A stretch of 64,000 bases of DNA from an uncultured Roseobacter sp. (GTDB lineage Bacteria > Pseudomonadota > Alphaproteobacteria > Rhodobacterales > Rhodobacteraceae): NCBI GenBank assembly GCA_947501635.1, contig CANMWT010000012.1, forward strand, positions 1 to 64,000, in the 5' to 3' direction. Within the stretch, counting starts at the first letter, position 1. Each line of letters opens with the position of its first letter. Positions 11,285-60,804 of the stretch are shown here, piece after piece. Below the pieces are notes generated by a model. The model was not told the DNA's origin, did no database searches, and was given only the letters and a program-made list of their open reading frames with translations. A program made the position numbers and the translations under genes.

Positions 11285-13009
11285 ATGACCGGCGGCTTTT
11301 TTGACGTCGACATCTTTCGTGGACTGGCCTTTCGCATATTGCTGTTCCTGACGCTTGCTTTGCTGCCGTTCGGGTTGATTGCTGTCTTCCAAACCCGCGA
11401 GATCGTCCGCCAGGCGGAGTCGAACTCAGAACTCTCCCTGCTGGCGTTGACGGACCAGTCGGCCAGTACTGAACGCTCGATTTTTCAAGAAGCCTTTGGG
11501 GCCGCCGAAGCGCTGAGCGCGCTTGCGCAGTTGTACTCGACAGATGCGCGGGCCTGCTCTGCGTTTCTGGAAGCCTACCGGCGTGCGGCGGGCATTTATT
11601 CGTTTATCGGGTATTTGCCACCTGACGGCGTCATGCGGTGCTCTTCCGGCGGGCAAACCTTCGATTTCAGCGATTTTCCGGGGTTCGCCAAAGAGGTCGA
11701 AGCCGCGAGACGTCAGATCACCTACAGCGCCAAGGGGGTCATCAGCGGTGAGCCCGTTCTGGTTCTGTCGCAGCCATTTTTCACCCGCGCAGGATTTGCC
11801 GGTTTCATGACCATGTCCGTGCCACTGACGGCAATTGCTGAAGAGACCTTCTCGCCGCTTTCGGGCATGCCCGCAAACCTCGTGACGTTCAACGCTGATG
11901 GTGTCGTTCTGCGGTCTGACCGGGGCGCAGTCATCACGCAGGCCGATTTGCCTGCGGGGCAGTCACTCGCGTCTCTTGTGGGTGCCAAGCCTGTCGTTTT
12001 CAAAGACAAGAACCGGGGCGACGCTACGCGTCTTTACGCCGTTGTGCCGATCGTGCCGGATGTCGCCTATGCCATGAGCATCTGGCGTCCCGAAGAACTG
12101 GCACCGGGTTTGCGTCAGTCCATCGGACTTAGCATGGTCTTGCCGGTCATTATGTGGCTTGCCAGTCTCGTGGTGGCCTTTTGGTCGCTGAACCGGCTTG
12201 CCGTGCGCCACATCCGAAAACTCGGGCGGCAGATGCGCCTGTTTGCCTATAACCGACGTGTGCCGCGCACCTCATTGGGCCAAAGCGTGCCGCGCGAGCT
12301 GGAACAAATCCAGACCGCTTTTGCGCGCATGGCAGATTCAATTGTCCGCGACGAAGCTGCATTAGAAGACAGCCTGCGCGACAAGAACATCCTGCTCAAG
12401 GAAGTACACCACAGGGTGAAGAATAATCTGCAGCTGATCTCCTCGATCATGAACATGCAGATCAGGCGGGCCCAAAGCGAGGACGCAAGGCAAGTGCTCA
12501 AACGTTTGCAGGACCGTATTCTCAGCCTCGCAACAGTGCACAAGAACCTGTACCAGACCGAAGAGCTGGACCGCGTGGATGCCGGCAAGCTTGCCGAAGA
12601 GATCGTGGGCCAGATGCTATCGATGGGCCTGTCGGCGAGCCGCGGTGTCGAGGTGACGCAGTCTTACGATTCATTCCAGATGGACGCCGATGACGCCGCA
12701 CCCCTGACGTTGCTTATGTCCGAAGCGGTCACAAACGCGCTGAAATACATCGGCGCGCCTGGGCCGGGCATCGCCCCGCGGTTGAACATCTCTTTGACCC
12801 TGCAGTCGGATGACACGGTTGAATTCAAAGTATCCAATACCACCTCCGGCGCGATTGGGAGCGAAGGGACCGGCCTCGGAACCCAGCTTATCAGCGCTTT
12901 CGCCCGCCAGCTTGGCGGCGCGGTGGACGTGGGGTTCGAGGCGTCGGAGCATTGGATAACGCTGACCTTTCCCCTGCGGGAGCGCGTCAAGCAACGTTAC
13001 GATTTCTAA
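11285..13009 (+). CDS. Membrane sensor histidine kinase, HisKA_2 (HWE-like) type, general stress response
   Basis: This 574-residue kinase has one N-terminal membrane segment (about 12-35), an extracytoplasmic sensor region of the CACHE type (about 36-275), a second membrane segment (about 283-305) and a HAMP-like linker. A HisKA_2 dimerisation domain follows with KEVHHRVKNNLQLISS (phosphoacceptor His near residue 375), then a HATPase region (LLMSEAVTNALKYI, then GTGLGTQLI). HisKA_2/HWE kinases are the usual PhyR kinases, and its position after phyR-nepR-ecfG makes it the likely input to this stress system. The signal it senses is unknown. It starts one base after the ecfG stop. Confidence 0.88.
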   Translation: MTGGFFDVDIFRGLAFRILLFLTLALLPFGLIAVFQTREIVRQAESNSELSLLALTDQSASTERSIFQEAFGAAEALSALAQLYSTDARACSAFLEAYRRAAGIYSFIGYLPPDGVMRCSSGGQTFDFSDFPGFAKEVEAARRQITYSAKGVISGEPVLVLSQPFFTRAGFAGFMTMSVPLTAIAEETFSPLSGMPANLVTFNADGVVLRSDRGAVITQADLPAGQSLASLVGAKPVVFKDKNRGDATRLYAVVPIVPDVAYAMSIWRPEELAPGLRQSIGLSMVLPVIMWLASLVVAFWSLNRLAVRHIRKLGRQMRLFAYNRRVPRTSLGQSVPRELEQIQTAFARMADSIVRDEAALEDSLRDKNILLKEVHHRVKNNLQLISSIMNMQIRRAQSEDARQVLKRLQDRILSLATVHKNLYQTEELDRVDAGKLAEEIVGQMLSMGLSASRGVEVTQSYDSFQMDADDAAPLTLLMSEAVTNALKYIGAPGPGIAPRLNISLTLQSDDTVEFKVSNTTSGAIGSEGTGLGTQLISAFARQLGGAVDVGFEASEHWITLTFPLRERVKQRYDF

Positions 13010-13063
13010 ACCAAATCGCTGTATCCCTAGTCGCTATGCGATGGACAAGTAAAGGGCAGGACA

Positions 13064-13183
13064 ATGCCAATTGAAATTTTTGCCCTGGGGTCGGGTACCC
13101 TTGCGCTGGTCGCAATTGTGCTGATGGTTGTCAGCCGCGTTGAGACCACCGCCCGCAAGCCCGACAGTGACCGCAAACACTAA
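13064..13183 (+). CDS. Single-pass membrane microprotein (39 aa), unknown function
   Basis: A 39-codon frame begins at an ATG with GGGCAGG eight bases upstream. It encodes MPIEIFALGSGTLALVAIV... with one hydrophobic segment (about residues 5-24) and a basic/polar tail RKPDSDRKH. I do not recognise it. The stop codon overlaps the stop of the convergent FMN enzyme by two bases. The good ribosome-binding site and clean membrane-plus-tail design support a real gene, perhaps co-transcribed with the stress kinase 54 bp upstream. Confidence 0.5.
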   Translation: MPIEIFALGSGTLALVAIVLMVVSRVETTARKPDSDRKH

Positions 13184-14805
13184 AATCCCGGTGATGCGAA
13201 GCTGGCGGCACTCGCACGGTTCCAGCGTTTGCGATAGTCGGCCATGGCGGGCGAGTCTTCCGCGTTTTTCAGCAAGAAACCCTCCGGCAGATACGCAAAA
13301 GCTTCGCTTGCTTCGGCCATCTCTTTGTTGCCAAGGCGGACCATCATGTGCTGTGGCATGAACCCGCCTGGTTGCGACAAACCCGCAGCACCCGTCATCT
13401 CGCCCAAAGCTTTCAACGTGTTTTTGTGATAACGGGCGACCCTTTCGGACTTTGACCCGACATCCAGCGCGCGGGCGCGCAACGGGTCTTGGGTCGCAAC
13501 CCCAACGGGGCAATGATTGGTGTGGCATGCCTGCGCCTGAATACACCCGATCGCAAACATGAAACCGCGGGCCGAATTGCACCAATCTGCCCCAAGTGCC
13601 AATGCGCGCGCGACATCAAACGCGGACACGATCTTACCGGCCGCGCCGATTTTCACCTGATCGCGCAGACCCGCACCGCGCAGTGTGTTGTGCACAAAGG
13701 TCAGACCTTCCACCATCGGCATACCGACATGATTGGCAAACTCGACAGGGGCCGCACCTGTGCCACCTTCCGTCCCGTCCACCACGATGAAATCGGGCAC
13801 AACGCCGGTTTCCAGCATGGCCTTGACCATACACATGAACTCGCGCCGGTGCCCGATGCAAAGCTTGAAACCTACAGGTTTGCCACCTGATAACTCGCGC
13901 AATTGGCCGATGAAGGCCATCAGCTCCATGGGTGTTTCAAAAGCAGGGTGCGCGGCAGGTGACACACAGTCCACGCCCATGGGAATGCCACGCGCCTCGG
14001 CGATCTCTTCGGTAATCTTCGAGGCCGGCAACATGCCACCGTGGCCGGGTTTCGCCCCCTGGCTGAGCTTTATTTCGATCATCTTGATCTGATCGAGACT
14101 GGCCGTCTCGCGGAACTTGTCCGGGTTAAAGCTGCCATCATCATTGCGACATCCAAAATACCCCGACGCCACCTGGAAAATCAGATCACCGCCGCCTGCC
14201 TTGTGATAGCGGCTCACGGAACCTTCGCCCGTATCATGGGCAAACCCACCCATCTTGGCACCCTTGTTCAAGGCTTCGATCGCGTTGCCGCTCAGCGATC
14301 CGAAGCTCATGGCCGAGATATTGTAGATCGATGCGCTGTAAGGTTTTTTGCAATTCGGACCGCCAATAAGTACACGGAAATCGCAGTCTTCAATATGGAT
14401 CGGATTTACCGAATGCGTCACCCAGGCGTAGCCGGAATCATATGCGCGCATGCGCGACCCAAAAGGACGTTTGTCCTCAGCACCTTTCGCGCGCTGATAC
14501 ACGAGCGATCGTGCATCACGCGAAAACGGCTCTTCGTCCTGATCCGATTCAATAAGGTATTGCCGGATTTCAGGGCGTATCCCCTCAAAGAGAAACCGCA
14601 TGTGGCCAAGCACGGGATAGTTGCGCAGGATAGAGTGGTGCGTTTGGTTCAGATCGTGAAAACCAAGCCACGTCAGACCAATGAAGACCAGCGCGGGGAG
14701 CCACAACCAGCTTGTCCAGACCAGCGCCGCGATCACGCATATGACGGAAAGCGCGGCAACCGCGGCCAGAGTTGTGAAACGCAGGAGTGGTTCCAAAGCA
14801 TGCAT
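13180..14805 (-). CDS. FMN-binding glutamate synthase family protein (GltB central-domain homologue) with membrane anchor
   Basis: This 541-residue protein has two N-terminal hydrophobic segments (about 10-50), followed by the FMN-binding alpha/beta-barrel found in the glutamate synthase large subunit. Landmarks are YNISAMSFGSLS, KMGGFAHDTGEGSVSRYH, KPGHGGMLPASKI, VDGTEGGTGAAP (barrel phosphate loop), and CIQAQACHTNHCPVGVATQ, the cysteine set of the 3Fe-4S cluster. The amidotransferase and GXGXG domains of true GltB are absent, so this stand-alone protein is not a complete glutamate synthase. Its reaction is not known from sequence. Confidence 0.85.
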   Translation of the reverse strand: MHALEPLLRFTTLAAVAALSVICVIAALVWTSWLWLPALVFIGLTWLGFHDLNQTHHSILRNYPVLGHMRFLFEGIRPEIRQYLIESDQDEEPFSRDARSLVYQRAKGAEDKRPFGSRMRAYDSGYAWVTHSVNPIHIEDCDFRVLIGGPNCKKPYSASIYNISAMSFGSLSGNAIEALNKGAKMGGFAHDTGEGSVSRYHKAGGGDLIFQVASGYFGCRNDDGSFNPDKFRETASLDQIKMIEIKLSQGAKPGHGGMLPASKITEEIAEARGIPMGVDCVSPAAHPAFETPMELMAFIGQLRELSGGKPVGFKLCIGHRREFMCMVKAMLETGVVPDFIVVDGTEGGTGAAPVEFANHVGMPMVEGLTFVHNTLRGAGLRDQVKIGAAGKIVSAFDVARALALGADWCNSARGFMFAIGCIQAQACHTNHCPVGVATQDPLRARALDVGSKSERVARYHKNTLKALGEMTGAAGLSQPGGFMPQHMMVRLGNKEMAEASEAFAYLPEGFLLKNAEDSPAMADYRKRWNRASAASFASPGF

Positions 14806-15000
14806 GGGCAGAGCTCCTTTTCGACGGACGCACGACTATTGCTGACCAGAGGGTGTGCCAAGAGGAGAATTTGTGCAAGCCGTTGTCTCGCATCGCGAAG
14901 CTGATTACGGTTGCCGGCAGGCGTCATAGCAGATGCACAAGCATACGGAGACGGGGACAATTTCACGGCCCGTAGAACAGCGATTGGATAAACCCGGCAG

Positions 15001-16113
15001 ATGAGCGGCCCACTTGAAAACCTGCGGGTCGTGGAATTCTGCGGCCTTGGTCCCGCGCCGCTGGCCGGACAGTTGTTGGCAGATATGGGCGCGCAGGTTA
15101 CCGTGATTGATCGCGCATCCGCCCCCGAGGATGCCACAGATGTGAACCGGCGCGGCAAGCGGAGCGTCGCGCTGAACCTCAAGACACAAAGCGGGCAGGC
15201 GGTCGTTCGGCAGATGCTCGAGGGTGCGGACATCCTGATCGAAGGCTTCCGCCCCGGTGTGATGGAAAGGCTGGGGCTGGGGCCGGATGACTGCCCGGCG
15301 CATCTGGTCTATGGGCGCATGACAGGGTGGGGGCAAAGAGGCCCATGGTCGGACACTGCGGGCCATGACATCAACTATCTTGCTCTCACGGGTGCTTTGC
15401 ATGCGATTGGGCCAGCGGACAACCCCCCGCCGCCGCCGCTTAATCTGGTTGCGGATTACGGTGGCGGCGCCATGTTTCTCGTGTTTGGTCTGCTGGCAGC
15501 CGTGATCGAGCGGGCACATTCTGGCAAAGGGCAGGTCGTGGATGCGGCAATGGTCGATGGGGTGCCCGCGATGATGGGCCTGATCCAGGGATTATTGGCA
15601 CGCGGAGACATCCAGAACCGGCGCGAAAGCAACTGGATCGATGGAGCCGCGCCATTCTACCGCTGTTACACTTGCGCAGATGGCAAATTCATCTCTGTCG
15701 GCGCATTAGAGCCGCAATTCTATACCCAGTTGATGCAAAAAGCAGGCCTGGACGAGGCGACTTCGCAATATGACCGGGCAAGTTGGCCTGCTGAGACCGA
15801 CAGGCTGGCGGCCCTGTTCCGCACCAAAACCCGCGAGGACTGGGCCAAGGTCTTTGCAGGGTCGGACGCATGTGTCGCGCCCGTGCTCGACTTTGCCGAG
15901 GCGACGGTGCACCCGGTGAATGTGAAACGCGGCGTTTTCTATCAGGAAGGTGACGTCTGGCAGGCAAGGTCCGCCCCGCGGTTCAGCCGATCAGAGCCCG
16001 CGCGCGCCCATGCCCCGCGGGCAGCGGGTGCAGACACGGATGCGGTTTTGCGCTCGCTTGGCTACACCGACGAGGACGTGACGCGTCTTAAAGAAGAAGG
16101 GGTTGTCACATGA
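15001..16113 (+). CDS. CaiB/BaiF family (class III) CoA-transferase or acyl-CoA racemase
   Basis: This 370-residue protein has family III CoA-transferase features: VVEFCGLGPAPLAGQLLADMGAQVT at the N-terminus (key words GPAPLAGQLLADMGA), DVNRRGKRSVALNLKT, ADILIEGFRPGVMERLGLG, and GHDINYLALTGAL carrying the likely catalytic Asp. Members include alpha-methylacyl-CoA racemase and formyl- or succinyl-CoA transferases; the ITG-type segment here is closest to the racemase-like group. The stop overlaps the SDR gene start (ATGA), suggesting a shared pathway, probably branched-chain or hydroxyacyl-CoA metabolism. Confidence 0.85.
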   Translation: MSGPLENLRVVEFCGLGPAPLAGQLLADMGAQVTVIDRASAPEDATDVNRRGKRSVALNLKTQSGQAVVRQMLEGADILIEGFRPGVMERLGLGPDDCPAHLVYGRMTGWGQRGPWSDTAGHDINYLALTGALHAIGPADNPPPPPLNLVADYGGGAMFLVFGLLAAVIERAHSGKGQVVDAAMVDGVPAMMGLIQGLLARGDIQNRRESNWIDGAAPFYRCYTCADGKFISVGALEPQFYTQLMQKAGLDEATSQYDRASWPAETDRLAALFRTKTREDWAKVFAGSDACVAPVLDFAEATVHPVNVKRGVFYQEGDVWQARSAPRFSRSEPARAHAPRAAGADTDAVLRSLGYTDEDVTRLKEEGVVT

Positions 16114-54040: not shown

Positions 54041-54676
54041 TTGAACCAGTATTTGGGCATTGTGTTGCTGGATTGGGTCGAACTGACAGGCTATGCCGCC
54101 TCTTTCCTCGTTTTCCTGACCTTTTGCATGAAAACACTCATTCCGCTGCGCCTCCTGGCTATCGCATCCAATGTGGTGTTTATCCTCTATGCGCTCGGTG
54201 CCGGCCTCGTTCCGGTTTTGCTGCTGCATGCGGCCCTCTTGCCGCTCAACATTTTGCGGACCTATGAACAGATCAAAATCCACCGCCGTGTGCAGCGCGT
54301 GACGGATGGCAGTGCGGACGTGGACTCCCTGATCCCCTTTATGCATGCGCGCCTCGGTCCCGCGGGCGAAGTGCTCTTTCGAAAGAACGATATAGCAAAG
54401 GATATCTTCTATATCAGCAAAGGCTCTGTCGAAATTCCCGAAATCGGCAAAACCCTCGGCCCGGGCACGCTCTTTGGTGAAATGGCACTGTTTAACGACG
54501 ACCACACCCGCACGGCCTCTGCCATTTGTCTCGAAAACTGTGATTTGATGGTGATCTCAGAGGCAGACATTATCCGCCACTGCACAACCGACCCCGCCTT
54601 CGGGTTGTTTCTGGCCAAGCTTGTTGTGTCGCGTATGACTGAAAATCAGCAGGAACAGACACGCAAAATCACGTGA
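54041..54676 (+). CDS. Membrane protein fused to a cyclic-nucleotide-binding-type domain
   Basis: The product (~211 aa) starts at a TTG with GAGGA five bases upstream. Three hydrophobic segments (about 10-85; ELTGYAASFLVFLTFCMKT, LLAIASNVVFILYALGAGL) are followed by a CRP-type beta-roll (about 105-200) with FRKNDIAKDIFYISKGSVEI and GPGTLFGEMALFNDDHTRTAS (key words LFGEMALFNDDHTRTA), the phosphate-binding-cassette region. There is no DNA-binding domain, so it is a membrane sensor or channel-like protein, similar in layout to Popeye-type proteins. It overlaps the rep gene tail-to-tail by 8 bases. Confidence 0.7.
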   Translation: MNQYLGIVLLDWVELTGYAASFLVFLTFCMKTLIPLRLLAIASNVVFILYALGAGLVPVLLLHAALLPLNILRTYEQIKIHRRVQRVTDGSADVDSLIPFMHARLGPAGEVLFRKNDIAKDIFYISKGSVEIPEIGKTLGPGTLFGEMALFNDDHTRTASAICLENCDLMVISEADIIRHCTTDPAFGLFLAKLVVSRMTENQQEQTRKIT

Positions 54677-55349
54677 CCACGCGCACTTCGGATACGTCCC
54701 CGTCAACCTCGCGCAGGGCCGCCAGAATGCGCCGTTCCAGATGCGTCTGCACATAGGCCGCATGAAACCGTGACGGCGCACGCAACGTAAGTCGCCCCCC
54801 TGCCCGCTCCGCCCGTGTCAGGGCACTGATCCATGCCGCATAGGCACCCGCATCCTCGGCATGCAGCAGTGCTTGCGCCAGAACCCACTCGCTGCCGCTG
54901 GACACATCGGGGGCAGCCACAGGGGTCTTCACCGGCAGTGGCACCACGGTCTGGCTTTCGTCGCCAGCGCCCATCCGCAGCTCGAAATCAGAGCCTACAC
55001 AGGGCCATTGCGCCGATGTATCCTCTAAAATTCGGTCCAGCCCCAACGCGTATTGGGTCACACGTCCGCGCGCGCCCTGTCGCCGCACCACCAGCCAGCC
55101 GCGCGCACGCAACAGCGCCATTTCGCGTTTGACAGTGCGCTCGTCCACCGACCAAAGCTGCGCGATCTCGCGTTGTCCCACGGCAAGTTCGTCGCGGGCC
55201 CAGTTGTATCTGGCTGTCATCAGGGTCATCAGCCGCAGCACGCGTCTCTGATCGTGTTTGTCCCGCGCCAAAGCATAGGCGCCCAAAGCTGTCAGAATGT
55301 CGTATTTGCGTGCAGCGGCCCCACGACCCACGGGTTTCGTGGAAAGCAT
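54669..55349 (-). CDS. DnaA-like plasmid replication initiator
   Basis: This 226-residue protein has an N-terminal winged helix (about 40-95: VGQREIAQLWSVDERTVKREM and LLRARGWLVVRRQGARGRVTQYAL, cut here to VGQREIAQLWSVDERTVKR). Its C-terminal domain resembles domain I of DnaA (YAAWISALTRAERAGGRLTL, APSRFHAAYVQTHLERRIL). It has no AAA+ ATPase domain, so it is not chromosomal DnaA. Rhodobacterales plasmids are known to use such DnaA-like initiators (named in the work of Petersen and colleagues on Roseobacter replicons), normally next to parAB as here. It faces away from parA across an iteron-bearing region. Confidence 0.82.
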   Translation of the reverse strand: MLSTKPVGRGAAARKYDILTALGAYALARDKHDQRRVLRLMTLMTARYNWARDELAVGQREIAQLWSVDERTVKREMALLRARGWLVVRRQGARGRVTQYALGLDRILEDTSAQWPCVGSDFELRMGAGDESQTVVPLPVKTPVAAPDVSSGSEWVLAQALLHAEDAGAYAAWISALTRAERAGGRLTLRAPSRFHAAYVQTHLERRILAALREVDGDVSEVRVVT

Positions 55350-55669: not shown

Positions 55670-55685
55670 TGTCCCCGCGGGGACA
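55670..55685. repeat. Palindrome copy 1 (intergenic, rep-parA)
   Basis: Exact TGTCCCCGCGGGGACA, 22 bp beyond the last iteron. A putative parS-like or operator site. Confidence 0.85.
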
Positions 55686-55778
55686 GACCCGCTGCACAGA
55701 ATCACCAGACCCCGCGGCGGCCCTTTACCTGAAGGCGCGCGCATGGGTCCGCATTTCTGCTACGCAATGATATTCCCT

Positions 55779-55804
55779 TTTGCGTTTTTCCGCAAATACG
55801 CGTA
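55779..55804. promoter_or_regulatory. Candidate promoter/operator region of parAB
   Basis: An inverted repeat TTTGCG-N6-CGCAAA is followed directly by the palindrome TACGCGTA, 83-108 bp before the parA ATG and just upstream of palindrome copy 2. It is a likely site for parAB promoter control; I cannot assign -35/-10 elements confidently. Confidence 0.4.
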
Positions 55805-55827
55805 AATCTGGAAAAAAGCAGAATTTG

Positions 55828-55843
55828 CGTCCCCGCGGGGACA
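55828..55843. repeat. Palindrome copy 2 (parA leader, one outer mismatch)
   Basis: CGTCCCCGCGGGGACA: the inner 14 bases are exact and the first base is C instead of T. It lies 43 bp before the parA ATG, a position suited to autoregulation by the partition proteins. Confidence 0.8.
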
Positions 55844-55886
55844 GAGGTTTTGCACAAAACAACACGAGCACAAAGACAGGCCGCCC

Positions 55887-57191
55887 ATGTTTACCCACAA
55901 AGACCTCGCGCAGTTGCAGGCACAATCGCTGAAAATGCAGGGGTTCATCCGCCAGCAGACCTACAGCCCGCAAAACGAGAAGACGCTGCGGCGCTTTTCC
56001 AGCTGGGAGGTGGCGGAACTGGTGTTTCAGGTCAACCAGTCAACGATGCGCGGGCGTCTTGCCGCCGACCCCACCCTGCCCCAGGGACAGGTAGAGGAGG
56101 ACGGACGCCAGCGCTGGTACAGTCTTGACGAGATCAACGAGCTGCGCCGCCGGCTCAAGGTCAACCGCCGCTCGCTGATGCCCTACCGGCCGTCAGGCAA
56201 ACGTGCGATGCGCGCGGCCATCGCCAATTTCAAGGGCGGCGCCGGCAAATCCACCGTGGCGCTGCACTTTGCCCACGCCGCTGCGCTGGACGGCTACCGC
56301 GTGCTCTGTGTCGATTTCGACCCGCAGGCCACGCTGAGCCATTCGATGGGCCTGTCGGATGTGGCCGAGGAATACACCGTCTGGGGTATTATGGCGCGCG
56401 ATCTGGCGGCAGAGACGACGCGCATGAATCAGGCCGCACAGGGTGCCGAAAGCGGGACCGCCCTGCCCCAGCGCCGCCTGCCCAGCAGCATCACCGACAT
56501 GGGGCTGGCTGATCTGCGCGTGTCGGATTTTATCAAGCCGACGAACTGGCCCACGATCGATATTGTCCCCTCCTGTGCCAATGCGGCCTTTGTTGAATTC
56601 GCCTCTGCCCAGTACCGGCATATGAACCCCGAATGGTCGTTTTTTGCGGCCGTTTCGCGCTTTCTTGACCAGCTGGCACCCGACGCTTATGACCTTGTGC
56701 TTTTTGATTGTCCGCCGGCCATTGGCTACCAGTCGATGAACGCGGTTTTTGCGGCAGACATGCTCTATATCCCCTCCGGCCCGGGGTATTGGGAATATGA
56801 TTCCACCACCTCTTTCATCGGTCAGCTGTCCGAAGCGCTCGAAGATCTCAGCCGGTTTTCCGGACTTGTCCCCGCGGGGACAATGACCCTGCCAAAGGCG
56901 TTTCTGGATGTGCGATTCCTGCTCACACGGTTCGAGCCCAACAACGATCTGCACCGCGCGATGCAGTCAGCCTTTGTCAAAGTCTGGGGTGATAGAGTAG
57001 CCACCCACCCCATCGAGATGACCCGCGCGGTTGAGCAATCAGGGCGCTTTCTGTCGTCCATCTATGAAATCGACTATCGCGATATGACCCGTGAGACATG
57101 GCGGCGGGCCCGGGCGAGTTTCGATCAGGCATATGCTGAATTCCGCACCCATCTGGGCGCGGCATGGGACAAACTGGAGGATGAGGTATGA
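55887..57191 (+). CDS. parA: Plasmid partition ATPase ParA (RepA-type)
   Basis: This 434-residue ParA has an N-terminal HTH-like domain (FSSWEVAELVFQVNQSTMRG), as in large type Ia ParA/RepA proteins. The deviant Walker A NFKGGAGKSTVALHFA lies near residue 115, with VDFDPQATLSHSMG and VLFDCPPAIGYQS following. It is the motor that segregates the replicon through ParB bound at parS. Palindrome copy 3 is in its coding region (about residues 327-332), read as LVPAGTM. The stop overlaps the parB start (ATGA). Confidence 0.92.
   Translation: MFTHKDLAQLQAQSLKMQGFIRQQTYSPQNEKTLRRFSSWEVAELVFQVNQSTMRGRLAADPTLPQGQVEEDGRQRWYSLDEINELRRRLKVNRRSLMPYRPSGKRAMRAAIANFKGGAGKSTVALHFAHAAALDGYRVLCVDFDPQATLSHSMGLSDVAEEYTVWGIMARDLAAETTRMNQAAQGAESGTALPQRRLPSSITDMGLADLRVSDFIKPTNWPTIDIVPSCANAAFVEFASAQYRHMNPEWSFFAAVSRFLDQLAPDAYDLVLFDCPPAIGYQSMNAVFAADMLYIPSGPGYWEYDSTTSFIGQLSEALEDLSRFSGLVPAGTMTLPKAFLDVRFLLTRFEPNNDLHRAMQSAFVKVWGDRVATHPIEMTRAVEQSGRFLSSIYEIDYRDMTRETWRRARASFDQAYAEFRTHLGAAWDKLEDEV
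56867..56882. repeat. Palindrome copy 3 (inside parA)
   Basis: Exact TGTCCCCGCGGGGACA inside the parA reading frame, encoding VPAGT near residue 328. Confidence 0.85.
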
Positions 57192-58255
57192 GCAAGCGGC
57201 GAGTATTCGACATCGACTTTGACGACACCGCTGTCCCCGCGGGGACAGACCCGGCACCCGAGGCGCGGCGCGGTCCGATGGCGGCGGCCATTTCCGAGAA
57301 TGCCGAAGCACTTTCTGCGCGACAGGAGGCAGAAGCCGCCATCCGCGCTGAGAATGACCGGCTCGCGCATGAGTATGTGGCGCTCAAGAAAAATGGCCAG
57401 ATCGTGGGCCCTGTTGCGGTGGATGCGATCCGCGCTGAAAAGCTGATCCGCGACCGCGTGGCCGAACGGGACCCGGAACTGGACGAACTCAAGGCGTCGA
57501 TCCGCGCGGTGGGTCTGTCAAACCCGATCCACGTGGAGGAAGTCGCGGACGGCTACGAGCTTATTCAGGGCTTTCGCCGCCTCTCGGCCTATCGCGAGCT
57601 TTTGGCTGAAACCGGCGATGACACTTATGCCCGCATTCCCGCCACGCTCCAGGCGCGCGGGGCGCAACTGGACTTGCTGTACCGGCGGATGGTGGACGAA
57701 AACCTAGTGCGGCGCGATATCTCTTTCGCGGAAATGGCGCAGCTTGCCATGTCCTACGGAGACCGCACCGGGCAAAGCATGGGCTATGCGGGCGATCCGG
57801 TTGATGTGCTCTTTGCCTCTGCCGGCCGGCAAAAGCGCAGCTACATCCGCCATTTCACGCATCTTCTGCGCGCCATCGGTGACACGTTGAAACACCCCGA
57901 AGTGATCCCGCGCGCCACCGGTCTTGGGCTCTTGAAGCTGCTGGACAGCAACCCGCGCGCGGCCGGGCAGGTGCGGGCGCTGTTGCAGGCCCATCCCGAC
58001 CGCGACGCGCAGGCAGAGCTTGCGTTGCTGCGGCAAGCGGTGGCCGGCGGTGTCAAGGCGCCAAAAGCGCCCAAGGCCCCGGTTGCCAAATCTTCCGCGC
58101 GGACAACCATCAAGCTGAACCGCCCCGAAGGCACGGCGCGGTGCACTGCCTCTGCCGGCAAGTTCGAAGTTTTGCTGGACCGTGATTTCGGTGCAGTTGA
58201 CCCGCGCCGGCTCGAGCTGGCAGCCCGTGCGTTTCTGGATGCGCTCAAGGATTAG
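57188..58255 (+). CDS. parB: Centromere-binding partition protein ParB (RepB-like)
   Basis: This 355-residue ParB/RepB protein has an N-terminal ParA-interaction region (MSKRRVFDIDFDDT), a ParB nuclease-like/CTP-binding domain (about 75-150) with GLSNPIHVEEVADGYELIQGFRRLSAY (key words GLSNPIHV and IQGFRRLSAY), and an HTH region (LVRRDISFAEMAQLAMSYGD). A short basic Pro/Ala/Lys linker and C-terminal dimer domain follow. It would load at parS sites, for which the palindrome series is the obvious candidate. Copy 4 lies in its own 5' coding region (AVPAGTD, about residue 16). The stop overlaps the bchO stop tail-to-tail. Confidence 0.92.
   Translation: MSKRRVFDIDFDDTAVPAGTDPAPEARRGPMAAAISENAEALSARQEAEAAIRAENDRLAHEYVALKKNGQIVGPVAVDAIRAEKLIRDRVAERDPELDELKASIRAVGLSNPIHVEEVADGYELIQGFRRLSAYRELLAETGDDTYARIPATLQARGAQLDLLYRRMVDENLVRRDISFAEMAQLAMSYGDRTGQSMGYAGDPVDVLFASAGRQKRSYIRHFTHLLRAIGDTLKHPEVIPRATGLGLLKLLDSNPRAAGQVRALLQAHPDRDAQAELALLRQAVAGGVKAPKAPKAPVAKSSARTTIKLNRPEGTARCTASAGKFEVLLDRDFGAVDPRRLELAARAFLDALKD
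57232..57247. repeat. Palindrome copy 4 (inside parB)
   Basis: Exact TGTCCCCGCGGGGACA, encoding VPAGT near residue 16 of ParB. Confidence 0.85.
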
Positions 58256-59115
58256 TCGTGCACGAAGTCGAGGATCAGACGCGCCACGGTCTCGGGCGCT
58301 TCCTCATGGGCCAGATGGCCCAGACCGGGCAGGTGAACAACCCGCGCATCGGGGAGTTTGCGGGCGGCTTTGTCAGAGACTTCGGGCGGCACGGTGGCGT
58401 CGTTATCGCCCACAATCAGAAGTGTCCCCGCGGGGACAGTGCCCAGATCGTGCTGCAGCCCGTCCAGAGACCAGTTCGCCATCATCATCAGCGTGGCGTC
58501 CGCGTGGTCGCGGTCACTGATGAGACGTCGGTAATACGATAGCCCTTCGGCATCAATATCAGACCCTGTACTGCGGATTAGAGCCTCAATGCGCCCCGGC
58601 GCTGCGGAGGATTGCGCAAAGACCTTCGCCGTGAAAGGCACCGCTGCCAGCAGCTTGGCAAGCACCGGAAACAACACGCCCGCAAGCCCTTTGAAATTGT
58701 CTAGAGCGGCGTTGATGCCGACGACCTTGGGGGGGTGTCCCCGCGGGGACACAAGCTGTTGCGACAATCGAAGCGCCAAAGCACCCCCGGCGGAGTGGCC
58801 GATGATCGCGGTGGGGTGCCAGCCTTCCTGCCGGCACATGCGCGTCATATCCTCCGCGGTGGCTTCCAGTCCGGAACGGTGCCGCGCGCCCAGTTGCGTG
58901 AAACCCTGACCGGGCAGATCGATGGCCACGACATGGTACTGCACCGCGAGCAGCGGCAGCAGCATGCGAAATGAATGGGTAGAGCCGCCTGCCCCGTGCA
59001 ACAGCAGCAGGGTCTCGCCCGTGCCGGTTTCTTGCACATGCCAGCGGTGCGGACGGCTGTGCACCTGCCGTGAGAGCGCCGCATGGGGCCAGTCGGCAGG
59101 GGGAGGCCAGCGCAT
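58252..59115 (-). CDS. bchO: BchO alpha/beta hydrolase, magnesium chelatase-associated
   Basis: This 287-residue alpha/beta-hydrolase-fold protein is encoded beside bchD and bchI in purple bacteria. It has LLLLHGAGGSTHSF (oxyanion loop), IGHSAGGALAL (nucleophile elbow Ser) and VGDNDATVP followed by GLGHLAHEE (catalytic Asp/His region). Its role in Mg insertion is suspected but not settled. Two palindrome copies fall in the frame: one read as VSPRGH (about residues 122-127), the other as VPAGT (about 227-231). The 3' end overlaps parB tail-to-tail. Confidence 0.9.
   Translation of the reverse strand: MRWPPPADWPHAALSRQVHSRPHRWHVQETGTGETLLLLHGAGGSTHSFRMLLPLLAVQYHVVAIDLPGQGFTQLGARHRSGLEATAEDMTRMCRQEGWHPTAIIGHSAGGALALRLSQQLVSPRGHPPKVVGINAALDNFKGLAGVLFPVLAKLLAAVPFTAKVFAQSSAAPGRIEALIRSTGSDIDAEGLSYYRRLISDRDHADATLMMMANWSLDGLQHDLGTVPAGTLLIVGDNDATVPPEVSDKAARKLPDARVVHLPGLGHLAHEEAPETVARLILDFVHD
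58423..58438. repeat. Palindrome copy 5 (inside bchO)
   Basis: Exact TGTCCCCGCGGGGACA. Read on the bchO strand it encodes VPAGT near residue 228. Confidence 0.85.
58736..58751. repeat. Palindrome copy 6 (inside bchO, different frame)
   Basis: Exact TGTCCCCGCGGGGACA. This is the only coding copy read in another frame; it encodes VSPRGH near residues 122-127 of BchO. Confidence 0.85.
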
Positions 59116-59121
59116 GGGCCC

Positions 59122-60804
59122 TCAGCCCTCCAGAGCGGCGCTGACAGCCCCTGTGAGCCGCTCTGCGTCGGCGCGGGGCAGGGCGATGTAGGGCGCCTGC
59201 ATGCGGGCCGCCAGGCTGCGCAGCGCGTCCTGAGGGCGGTTGGACATGTCGATCACCAGCCCCGCTATGTTCTGCGCTGTCAGCAGCCCGGCCATTTTCT
59301 CGGCATCGCTTTGCGCGGTCTGCCGGTTTGCCGTACCGTCGAGCGCGATATTGGCGCGTCCGTCGGTCAGGATGACAACCGTGGGGGAAAGCCCGCGCGC
59401 GCGGCTTTGCTCGGCCAGCAAGGCGGCCTGCTGGAGCCCTGCGGCCAGCGGTGTACCGCCCCCGCCGGGCAGGGAGGCCAGCCGCCGTTTGGTTTGCACC
59501 AGCGATCGCGTCGGCGGCAGCAAAAGCTCGGCTTCTGCGCCGCGAAAGGCAATCAGCGCCACGTGGTCGCGCGCCGCATAGGCCTGCCCCAGCAAAAGTT
59601 CGACCGCGCCCTTGGCCTCGTTCAGGCGCGACATGGCCGCGGAGCCCGAGGCATCCACGGCAAAGATCAGCAACCGGTCGGACTGTTCCTGGTAACGCTT
59701 GAGGCGGATGTCTGCGGGTCTGATCTGCAGCCCCTGGCGCGGGGGTGTCCCCGCGGGGACAGCCGCATTGCGGAGCGGTTGCCAGGGGGCCGCCGCCCGA
59801 AGGGTGGCCACCAGATCAATACGGGCCCGACCGTCCAGCCGCCCGGGGCGGGAGGGCAGGGGTCGTCCGCGCCGGTTGCCTTTGCGCTTCATACCCGCAC
59901 CGCCGCCGGTCTGGCTGCGGGTTGTCCCCGCGGGGACAAGCCCGGCCAGCAGGTCCGCAGGCAACAGCGCTTTGACGGCGTCCACCAGCATGTCACCATC
60001 GGGCAACTCGAAGCTTTCGCTGTCTCCGGCGCCGTCGTCATCGGGGGCGTCTTCAGGCGGGGGAGGGGGGTCCTGGCTTTGGTCTTCGGGCTCTTGCGGG
60101 ACACGGGTGGCGCGCTGGGGATAGACCAGCTCGGCCGCGGCATTAAGGTCGCTTTCATCTACCGCTTTACGTCCGTGCATTGCTGCATGCGCCCGGGCGG
60201 CGCGCAACGCCAATGAGGGCGCGCGCAGGCTGTCGATGCCGAAGACTGCCGCAAGGCTTGTGAGGGTTTCGATGTCGCTGCCTGAAACGGTCACATCGGC
60301 GGGCGTCAGAGGTGTCCCCGCGGGGACAGGGGGCGTATCCGAAGGCCAGCCAGCAGGCGCGCGCCCTTCCGGCGCGATGTGAAACGCCAGACGTTCGGTC
60401 AGGGCAGGGGGGGCTGCCTCATCCGGTTCGGCCCCTTCGTCAAGCGCTACGATCATATGTCCTGCGCCGCTGTCCAGTTGCTGGGCCAGTTTTGCCGCAA
60501 GATCCGGACCGCACCGTTCCGACATGGTCAGCAACGCAGTGCATCTGCTATGAAAAAATGATTTATTTTCAACTACTTGCGCGGCATTCAAGGTGGCGGC
60601 CAGATCCAGTCCGCCAAACAGCTGGTCGTCGCTGATGGTGGGGTGAATTTTGCGCGGCTGCAAGGGGGCCACCTGCGTCAGCACATGATCGCGCGCGGGG
60701 CTTGCGCGCATGCGGATCACCGCGCCGCCAAGGTCTGCATCCGGCACACAAAGCAGTCGGAGCGCGAGGGCCGCGCGGTCCCAACTGGTGGTGTCGCTGG
60801 TCAC
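59122..60804 (-). CDS. bchD: Magnesium chelatase subunit D
   Basis: BchD joins BchI in the AAA+ ATPase ring that drives Mg2+ insertion by BchH. This 560-residue protein has a degenerate AAA+-type N-terminal part (about 1-230; no Walker A, as usual for BchD), a Pro/Asp-rich acidic linker (about 235-275, QDPPPPPEDAPDDDGAGD) and a C-terminal von Willebrand A domain with MIDAS motif FAVDASGSAAM and ILTDGRANI. Three palindromes are read as VPAGT near residues 160, 290 and 349, all in inter-domain or loop-like stretches. The start overlaps the bchI stop. Confidence 0.94.
   Translation of the reverse strand: MTSDTTSWDRAALALRLLCVPDADLGGAVIRMRASPARDHVLTQVAPLQPRKIHPTISDDQLFGGLDLAATLNAAQVVENKSFFHSRCTALLTMSERCGPDLAAKLAQQLDSGAGHMIVALDEGAEPDEAAPPALTERLAFHIAPEGRAPAGWPSDTPPVPAGTPLTPADVTVSGSDIETLTSLAAVFGIDSLRAPSLALRAARAHAAMHGRKAVDESDLNAAAELVYPQRATRVPQEPEDQSQDPPPPPEDAPDDDGAGDSESFELPDGDMLVDAVKALLPADLLAGLVPAGTTRSQTGGGAGMKRKGNRRGRPLPSRPGRLDGRARIDLVATLRAAAPWQPLRNAAVPAGTPPRQGLQIRPADIRLKRYQEQSDRLLIFAVDASGSAAMSRLNEAKGAVELLLGQAYAARDHVALIAFRGAEAELLLPPTRSLVQTKRRLASLPGGGGTPLAAGLQQAALLAEQSRARGLSPTVVILTDGRANIALDGTANRQTAQSDAEKMAGLLTAQNIAGLVIDMSNRPQDALRSLAARMQAPYIALPRADAERLTGAVSAALEG
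59746..59761. repeat. Palindrome copy 7 (inside bchD)
   Basis: Exact TGTCCCCGCGGGGACA. Encodes VPAGT near residue 349 of BchD, just before the VWA domain. Confidence 0.85.
59923..59938. repeat. Palindrome copy 8 (inside bchD)
   Basis: Exact TGTCCCCGCGGGGACA. Encodes VPAGT near residue 290 of BchD, after the acidic linker. Confidence 0.85.
60313..60328. repeat. Palindrome copy 9 (inside bchD)
   Basis: Exact TGTCCCCGCGGGGACA. Encodes VPAGT near residue 160 of BchD. It is the rightmost copy found. Confidence 0.85.

Follow-up and report, generated by a model that had tools for sequence, protein, structure and literature searches.

A 16-bp palindrome, TGTCCCCGCGGGGACA, is repeated nine times within 4.66 kb around the partition genes parA and parB and the photosynthesis genes bchO and bchD of an uncultured Roseobacter sp., and very probably forms the parS array of a ParABS-type partition system that reaches into the reading frames of bchO and bchD. 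The copies lie in a stretch of 64,000 nucleotides (the window) at the start of contig CANMWT010000012.1 of assembly GCA_947501635.1, which are contig C12 and genome G000 in our survey. When the window was scanned allowing up to three mismatches, exactly nine matches were found, eight exact and one, CGTCCCCGCGGGGACA at 55828, with a single outer mismatch. This bears out the number and positions of the copies, and the absence of further ones in the 64 kb, as given in a first-pass annotation of this DNA. The same annotation had held that the repetition is not due to chance, which agrees with 100 dinucleotide-preserving shuffles of the window: the mean number of matches at this threshold was 0.71, the maximum was 3 and none of the shuffles had nine. 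In the remaining 24.7 kb of the contig (L005, L006), there were zero matches at up to three mismatches. The first and last 77 bases of the contig are identical, which suggests a closed, circular molecule of about 88,653 bp, and the photosynthesis plasmid is therefore probably complete at this length.

Two of the putative parS copies precede parA. Copy 1 (55670..55685) is located in the gap between the replicase gene and parA, and copy 2 (55828..55843), the one with the outer mismatch (CGT), ends 43 bp before parA; at this second place a site is kept in many relatives, often with the same mismatch. Copy 3 (56867..56882) is inside parA (codons 328-332) and copy 4 (57232..57247) is at the 5′ end of parB (codons 16-20). 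Copies 5 (58423..58438) and 6 (58736..58751) follow inside bchO (codons 227-231 and 123-126, respectively), and copies 7 (59746..59761), 8 (59923..59938) and 9 (60313..60328) inside bchD (codons 349-353, 290-294 and 160-164). All copies other than the second are exact, and seven of the nine lie within open reading frames (ORFs), bchO and bchD being convergent to parAB. Being identical on the two strands, the palindrome gives VPAGT in one of its frames regardless of the coding strand; all ORF copies are read in this way except copy 6, which is read in another frame as SPRG. The first-pass annotation had the copies running through parA and parB into magnesium-chelatase genes. The four host genes stand, refined to two copies before parA, one in parA, one in parB, two in bchO and three in bchD, and the chelatase label holds for bchD but not for bchO, which encodes an alpha/beta hydrolase and no chelatase subunit.

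The occurrence of the motif follows one type of ParB. Among 59 genomes (ParB match cut-off E 1e-40), the exact motif was present in 14, our own included, and the same 14 genomes, and no others, had a ParB of 57% identity or more. It was found neither in the three genomes with a ParB 46-51% identical nor in the 42 others (0/45 together). All loci with a ParB at least 53% identical (37/37, 34 of them distinct) had at least two sites at up to two mismatches, and L033, with a ParB 52% identical, had ten. Furthermore, we collected loci by BchD, using the best 80 of 549 loci from the BchD alignment. At least two sites were present in 14 of the 15 loci with parA (>75% identity), compared to 1 of the 65 without parA; 15 of the 80 loci are shorter than 16 kb, where the absence of par is uncertain. 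The fifteenth parA-bearing locus, L031, carries another site type. In all 38 loci with sites of the type found here (TGT type, up to two mismatches), one is located 309-341 bp before the parB start, inside parA. The comparison with related photosynthesis plasmids that the first-pass annotation had proposed gave the same clusters around homologous parAB in R. litoralis, R. ponti, Thalassococcus and Tateyamaria, with the motif in parA, bchO and bchD (some copies with 1-2 mismatches). By these sequence comparisons the palindromes near parAB are specific to the ParB type, as in a ParABS system.

The motif is also found on plasmids of Leisingera, Aliiroseovarius and Qingshengfaniella that have no photosynthesis genes within the 40 kb examined. 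A Phaeobacter inhibens plasmid, likewise without photosynthesis genes in 40 kb, has five copies, none of them exact (two with one and three with two mismatches), and in Leisingera thetidis 7 of 11 copies are in the gap behind parB. This indicates that the array is a property of the partition module and that bchO and bchD became its hosts because they are downstream. Past parB, the array continues for about 2 kb on this plasmid and for as much as about 4 kb in the relative L038. The palindrome could instead be the operator of a transcription regulator, either ParB itself or a photosynthesis regulator. Two copies indeed precede parA in a gap that is a usual place for autoregulation, and an array bound by ParB could silence bchO and bchD. 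However, seven of the nine copies are inside ORFs, and the motif is missing from 64 of the 65 BchD loci without parA, so that we consider this improbable. A photosynthesis operator as the main role was rejected, since the same array is present on plasmids without photosynthesis genes around par in the stretch examined. A second, regulatory role for ParB may exist beside its role in partition.

Within the ORFs, selection seems to act at the level of DNA, since the sites occur in all three frames and conservation extends to silent positions. We compared frame and place of the sites in 100 aligned bchD and 98 aligned bchO, in which L023/L131, L024/L136 and L035/L134 are the same records twice. 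The place of copy 8 (bchD column 352) has a site in 24 loci (21 distinct), two of which are without parAB, that of copy 9 (bchD column 176-179) in 18 loci (15 distinct), one without parAB, and that of copy 6 (bchO column 136) in 25 loci (22 distinct), again one without parAB. At the place of copy 5, a site was found in this window only, among the 98 bchO. At the place of copy 7, R. litoralis has a site in the same frame and four further loci have one in another. One bchD column has sites read in two frames. Other site places in the bch genes are restricted to few loci (Tateyamaria, Nereida, Shimia, Sulfitobacter). Altogether, frames 0, 1 and 2 are used, giving the peptides VPAGT, SPRG or CPRGD. 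Silent positions were tested in 13 hand-chosen loci (this genus and Thalassococcus) of the 28 par-linked BchD, with columns 409-420 excluded. At two bchD VPAGT places, the third bases of four-fold codons were identical in 308/319 and 355/367 cases (97%), compared to 5100/11773 (43%) in the rest of bchD, and only five of 93 comparable bchD columns were fully identical. An alternative, in which the peptide VPAGT and not the DNA is under selection, would fit the presence of VPAGT in nine of ten aligned ParAs (the tenth being the distant one of S190) and at two places in five par-linked BchD (one with VPVGT at the second place). It is contradicted by the reading of the same DNA in three frames and by silent positions as conserved as the rest, and the peptides differ with the site type; we rejected it as having practically no chance of being correct.

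In the structure models, all five bch copies are in loops or linkers, one of them reaching the first residue of a strand. The BchO model has a mean predicted local distance difference test score (pLDDT) of 91.8, and the BchD model is weaker, with a mean pLDDT of 81.6 and a predicted template modelling score (pTM) of 0.48. In BchO, copy 5 is in a loop that runs up to the beginning of strand 231-236 and copy 6 in loop 121-129. In the low-pTM BchD model, copy 7 is in a loop, copy 8 in the low-confidence linker 285-312 and copy 9 in an interdomain loop. Among the matches listed, most bchO from clusters without par are 3-5 residues shorter at the SPRG place. An insertion scar of four codons at this site was rejected as a general rule, since the par-less L067, L081, L086 and L101 are equally long and L033 and L031 have the site without extra residues.

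Diverged ParBs are accompanied by other palindromes, which are often located at matching positions. In Cognatishimia L031 (ParB 47% identical) there are four copies of GTTCCCCGCGGGGAAC, located in bchD, bchO and parB and ahead of parA. This GTT type occurs twice on L034, a short contig with a ParB fragment, in bchD and bchO. The GTT..AAC type is found three times in Pseudosulfitobacter (L223), CTT..AAG in Paracoccus (L219) and Thioclava (L224), TTT..AAA in Jannaschia (L220), and a more distant palindrome in Marinovum (L221). In the still more distant L222 and L225 no repeated palindrome was found, and S190 (L016) has a single candidate. Where the site type differs, the bch-encoded peptides at the sites differ as well. 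Many offsets from parB recur, namely −321 (L219, L220, L224), +56 to +65 (L219, L223, L224) and beyond +1080 (L219, L220, L221, L224). In ParB, the candidate recognition helix is around R214-Q-K-R217. Residue 214 is Arg in 34/34 ParBs of the TGT type, and among five ParBs of other types the two CTT proteins have Tyr and the TTT protein has Pro, while one GTT protein has Lys and the second has Arg. In the ParB tree, from which the near duplicates L024, L035, L131 and L043 and the fragment of L034 were excluded, as in the site-type comparison, each of the two GTT-type proteins is sister to a TGT-type protein, suggesting that the GTT types arose by independent switches. In chromosomal ParB, according to the available parts of PMC7383237, R173 and the guanine at position 1 belong to the difference between parS and the Noc site. 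By analogy, the switch of the outer G seen here may correspond to that guanine.

If the sites bind ParB, the copies in bchO and bchD could still be redundant by-products of array growth that are unneeded for partition. Only 2-4 sites (up to two mismatches) are present in several TGT-type loci (L021, L022, L080, L217, L214, L215, L216 and L028), and copy number and positions vary among photosynthesis plasmids. On the other hand, a site recurs across genera at bchD codons 290-294 and 160-164 and at bchO codons 123-126, silent positions are conserved at two bchD places, and the sites at shared places have decayed in a cluster without parAB (G011), though not in the metagenome contig L029. We therefore regard redundancy as unlikely, if still worth weighing.

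In G011, the photosynthesis cluster is on a contig of 4,133,097 bp, with no parAB in the 20 kb around it and no ParB match genome-wide at E 1e-40. Its three shared places have 3, 2 and 4 mismatches, BchD reading APAGT at both its places, and the fraction of in-frame shifted control windows within four mismatches was 0.0. As matches with four mismatches arise by chance (window 23402 and 38866; L125 2588), the bchO place of G011 counts only by its position. We take G011 to be, probably, the chromosome of R. denitrificans OCh 114. A return of the R. denitrificans photosynthesis cluster from a plasmid to the chromosome has been argued from trees, as the available parts of PMC6052148 relate. The apparently decayed sites agree with this return, with G011 only probably being R. 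denitrificans. In three more genus members without this ParB (L126-L128) no site was found, the best match having five mismatches, at the bchO place of L128. Among clusters without this parA, the two bchD places were within four mismatches of the motif in 2/72 and 2/71 cases (L029 and L125), and the bchO place was near it in 3/65 (L029, L125 and L034, the last being the GTT type with a ParB fragment). Most par-less clusters thus show no relic, which neither supports nor excludes former residence on such a plasmid. In L029, an IS21-like transposase and ATPase pair (12545-15660, named by eye) is located behind bchO, where parB would be.

A genome-wide search for the 16-mer, suggested as a check by the first-pass annotation, revealed that the motif also occurs elsewhere in the genome but is clustered only on the plasmid. 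On the other contigs of our genome, scanned at up to two mismatches, there were four exact and four one-mismatch single copies and none with two mismatches. The exact copies (L001 1501, L002 1501, L003 1501 and L007 4727, on contigs C1, C7, C9 and C18) are located in genes that by eye are trmD-, lpd-, type I secretion ABC- and glutamine-amidotransferase-like. Matching stretches for the four were found in 18, 18, 11 and 7 of 18 genus genomes (own included), and no other genus locus was exact at these places (18, 18, 11 and 3 loci aligned), the closest being the lpd place of G011 with one mismatch. Genome G019 has seven scattered exact copies (L140-L146; on C2, C4, C6, which has two, C9, C17 and C21) and its par cluster on C18. 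No open frame of more than 200 codons runs through five of these copies in 2 kb, and one of the seven is 4.5 kb from bchD on the same contig. In addition, G009 has one exact copy on another contig, and in G001 the copy outside the cluster contig is in a bchD fragment at a contig end. The single copies in G000, G009 and G019 exceed a rough chance estimate of a few thousandths per genome, scaled from the shuffle result with codon structure ignored. Such copies would suit a palindromic mobile or REP-like repeat, or a restriction or methylation site, that is clustered here by chance. We consider this very improbable, as it stands against the tight linkage to one ParB type, the recurrent parB offsets and the different outer triplet with diverged ParB.

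Several points weigh against a parS array that extends into the bch genes. The ParB_N score of ParB is just below its cut-off (25.5 vs 26.3 bits), and the RepB model is far below its own. The offsets from parB are not all kept: the site in parA is missing in L223 and that in parB in L220, and the offsets of L221 are different ones. Arg214 is retained in the GTT-type ParB of L031, where residue 216 is changed from Lys to Arg instead. In L029, a metagenome contig of 584 kb, three sites persist, one exact and the others with one and two mismatches, and its 21.7 kb examined contain no parAB, so the absence of par is not always paired with decay; a recent loss of par is possible, as is an incomplete or chimeric contig. 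A role on the plasmid only does not account for the scattered exact copies in G000, G009 and G019, and L129-L137 and L139 were chosen with the motif already known and carry little independent weight. Moreover, the copies upstream of parA and within parA and parB might be enough for partition, which would make the bch copies dispensable.

Despite these points, the parS assignment made in the first-pass annotation is supported at the sequence level by the association with ParB type, by constraint on the DNA in all frames, by the replacement of the palindrome where ParB has diverged and by decay in one par-less cluster, ParB binding itself being predicted. In the proposed mechanism, ParB would bind each 16-bp palindrome, probably load as a clamp dependent on cytidine triphosphate and spread, and ParA would move the ParB complex so that the plasmid reaches both daughters. 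Sites before parA and in parA and parB are common in the plasmid family, with the array extending into whatever lies past parB. On photosynthesis plasmids, the bchO and bchD frames would have accommodated the sites in predicted loops and linkers, gaining peptides such as VPAGT and SPRG. We infer that the intragenic copies are needed for plasmid stability.

The module starts with a gene for a DnaA-like plasmid replicase of 226 amino acids (54669..55349, minus strand), whose Pfam DnaA_N score of 24.5 bits is just under the cut-off of 24.6. Homologues precede parA on R. litoralis (76% identical) and R. ponti (80%) plasmids. parA (55887..57191, plus strand) encodes a partition ATPase of 434 amino acids with Pfam AAA_31 (88.2 bits) over residues 111-313, which fits a Walker ATPase with an N-terminal extension (ParABS, type Ia-like). 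Its best NCBIfam score, 213.6 bits for TIGR03453 RepA, is below the equivalog cut-off of 348.45. For parB (57188..58255, plus strand; 355 amino acids), ParB_N, the CTPase domain, scores just short of its cut-off, as noted above; a GFRR motif is visible in the alignment, and homologues are annotated 'ParB N-terminal domain-containing' or 'ParB/RepB/Spo0J family'. bchO (58252..59115, minus strand) scores 338.9 bits with NCBIfam TIGR03056 (cut-off 172.55), and bchD (59122..60804, minus strand), for magnesium chelatase subunit D of 560 amino acids, scores 658 bits with NF009943 (cut-off 571). As bchI, bchD and bchO adjoin the replicon module, this is a photosynthesis gene cluster plasmid. No repABC operon was found at the module: bchO directly follows parB on the other strand, and the replicase gene is divergent and DnaA-like. 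Compared to R. litoralis pRLO149_94, the replicase is 76%, ParA 94% and ParB 80% identical. Judged by this homology and by the DnaA-like replicase beside parAB, the replicon is of the DnaA-like I type, in which the R. litoralis photosynthesis plasmid is classed (PMC6052148, PMC6739100, available parts).

A second, distant ParB (37% identity) is encoded in our own genome (C24, 11735-12739), and another partition system probably coexists. On a plasmid of Roseinatronobacter sp. S2 (L217), the same parAB type and exact sites are beside a different, longer replication initiation protein, which suggests a replicase exchange. hemE and hemC adjoin the gene at the replicase position beside parAB in Sulfitobacter S190 (L016), which has photosynthesis genes, and in THAF37 (L216), where no photosynthesis genes were found in the 15-kb stretch. 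In G005, a photosynthesis cluster with intact parAB and sites is on a contig of 1,074,209 bp (C10; L132), and integration, a chromid or a misassembly are possible for a contig of more than 1 Mb.

Full chromosomal parS has the sequence TGTTTCACGTGAAACA. The palindrome studied here resembles the chromosomal ParB-parS and Noc-NBS systems in its TGT..ACA ends; in those systems, differences in specificity lie in the outer guanine and the DNA-binding domain (PMC7383237, available parts). It differs in its core, CCCCGCGGGG, and in a distantly related ParB, whose residue 214 is aligned only by eye near Caulobacter K171-R173. The first-pass annotation had called a spread over several genes unusual for a plasmid. 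This does not hold in general, since dispersed and intragenic parS have precedents in the available parts of PMC9040568 and PMC3235114. In Rhodobacterales repABC replicons, several palindromic parS extend as far as about 4 kb past the rep/par genes, some of them in cas3, casA and casB, and selection inside coding sequence was suggested by the authors (PMC9040568). The array described here likewise has multiple sites beyond the module and partly in ORFs. Unlike those arrays, it comes with no repC, a DnaA-like replicase, bchO and bchD as hosts, homologous codons across genera and a site type varying with ParB. Scattered ParB sites away from the par operon are shared with the dispersed centromeres of N15, RK2, pSM19035 and pMF1, the last also with sites inside ORFs. 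These are other plasmids and partition systems, and no accessory metabolic operon is described as an array host in the available parts of PMC3235114. The DnaA-like I photosynthesis plasmids of PMC6052148 and PMC6739100, in their available parts, have the same replicon type and, within the photosynthesis gene cluster, the same place of the module. The main text of PMC6052148, in the parts available, makes no mention of palindromes, partition or centromeres (of three matches to 'pars', those shown are parsimony words), and those of PMC6739100 make none of palindromes or parS.

In the literature searched, we found no description of these sites, nor of parS or palindromes together with photosynthesis genes. 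Chlorophyll genes as a centromere, the concerted switching of sites and decayed sites as traces of plasmid residence thus appear to be new, a claim that we do not extend to the palindrome itself. A more speculative and rather doubtful extension is that bchO-bchD would belong structurally to the centromere, so that the array ties the cluster to the plasmid, has reshaped two pigment enzymes in favour of DNA segregation and leaves relics after chromosomal reintegration, the same ParB having gained outpost sites on the host chromosome. The array is a clear candidate for dual coding, in which the same bases would serve both as protein code and as centromere, and the relatives provide natural controls. 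The divergent ParBs, whose palindromes differ in several genes at the same time, would offer a system for studying the evolution of partition specificity, and perhaps of plasmid compatibility. Decayed sites, finally, may serve as an independent marker for the published plasmid-to-chromosome return of photosynthesis clusters.

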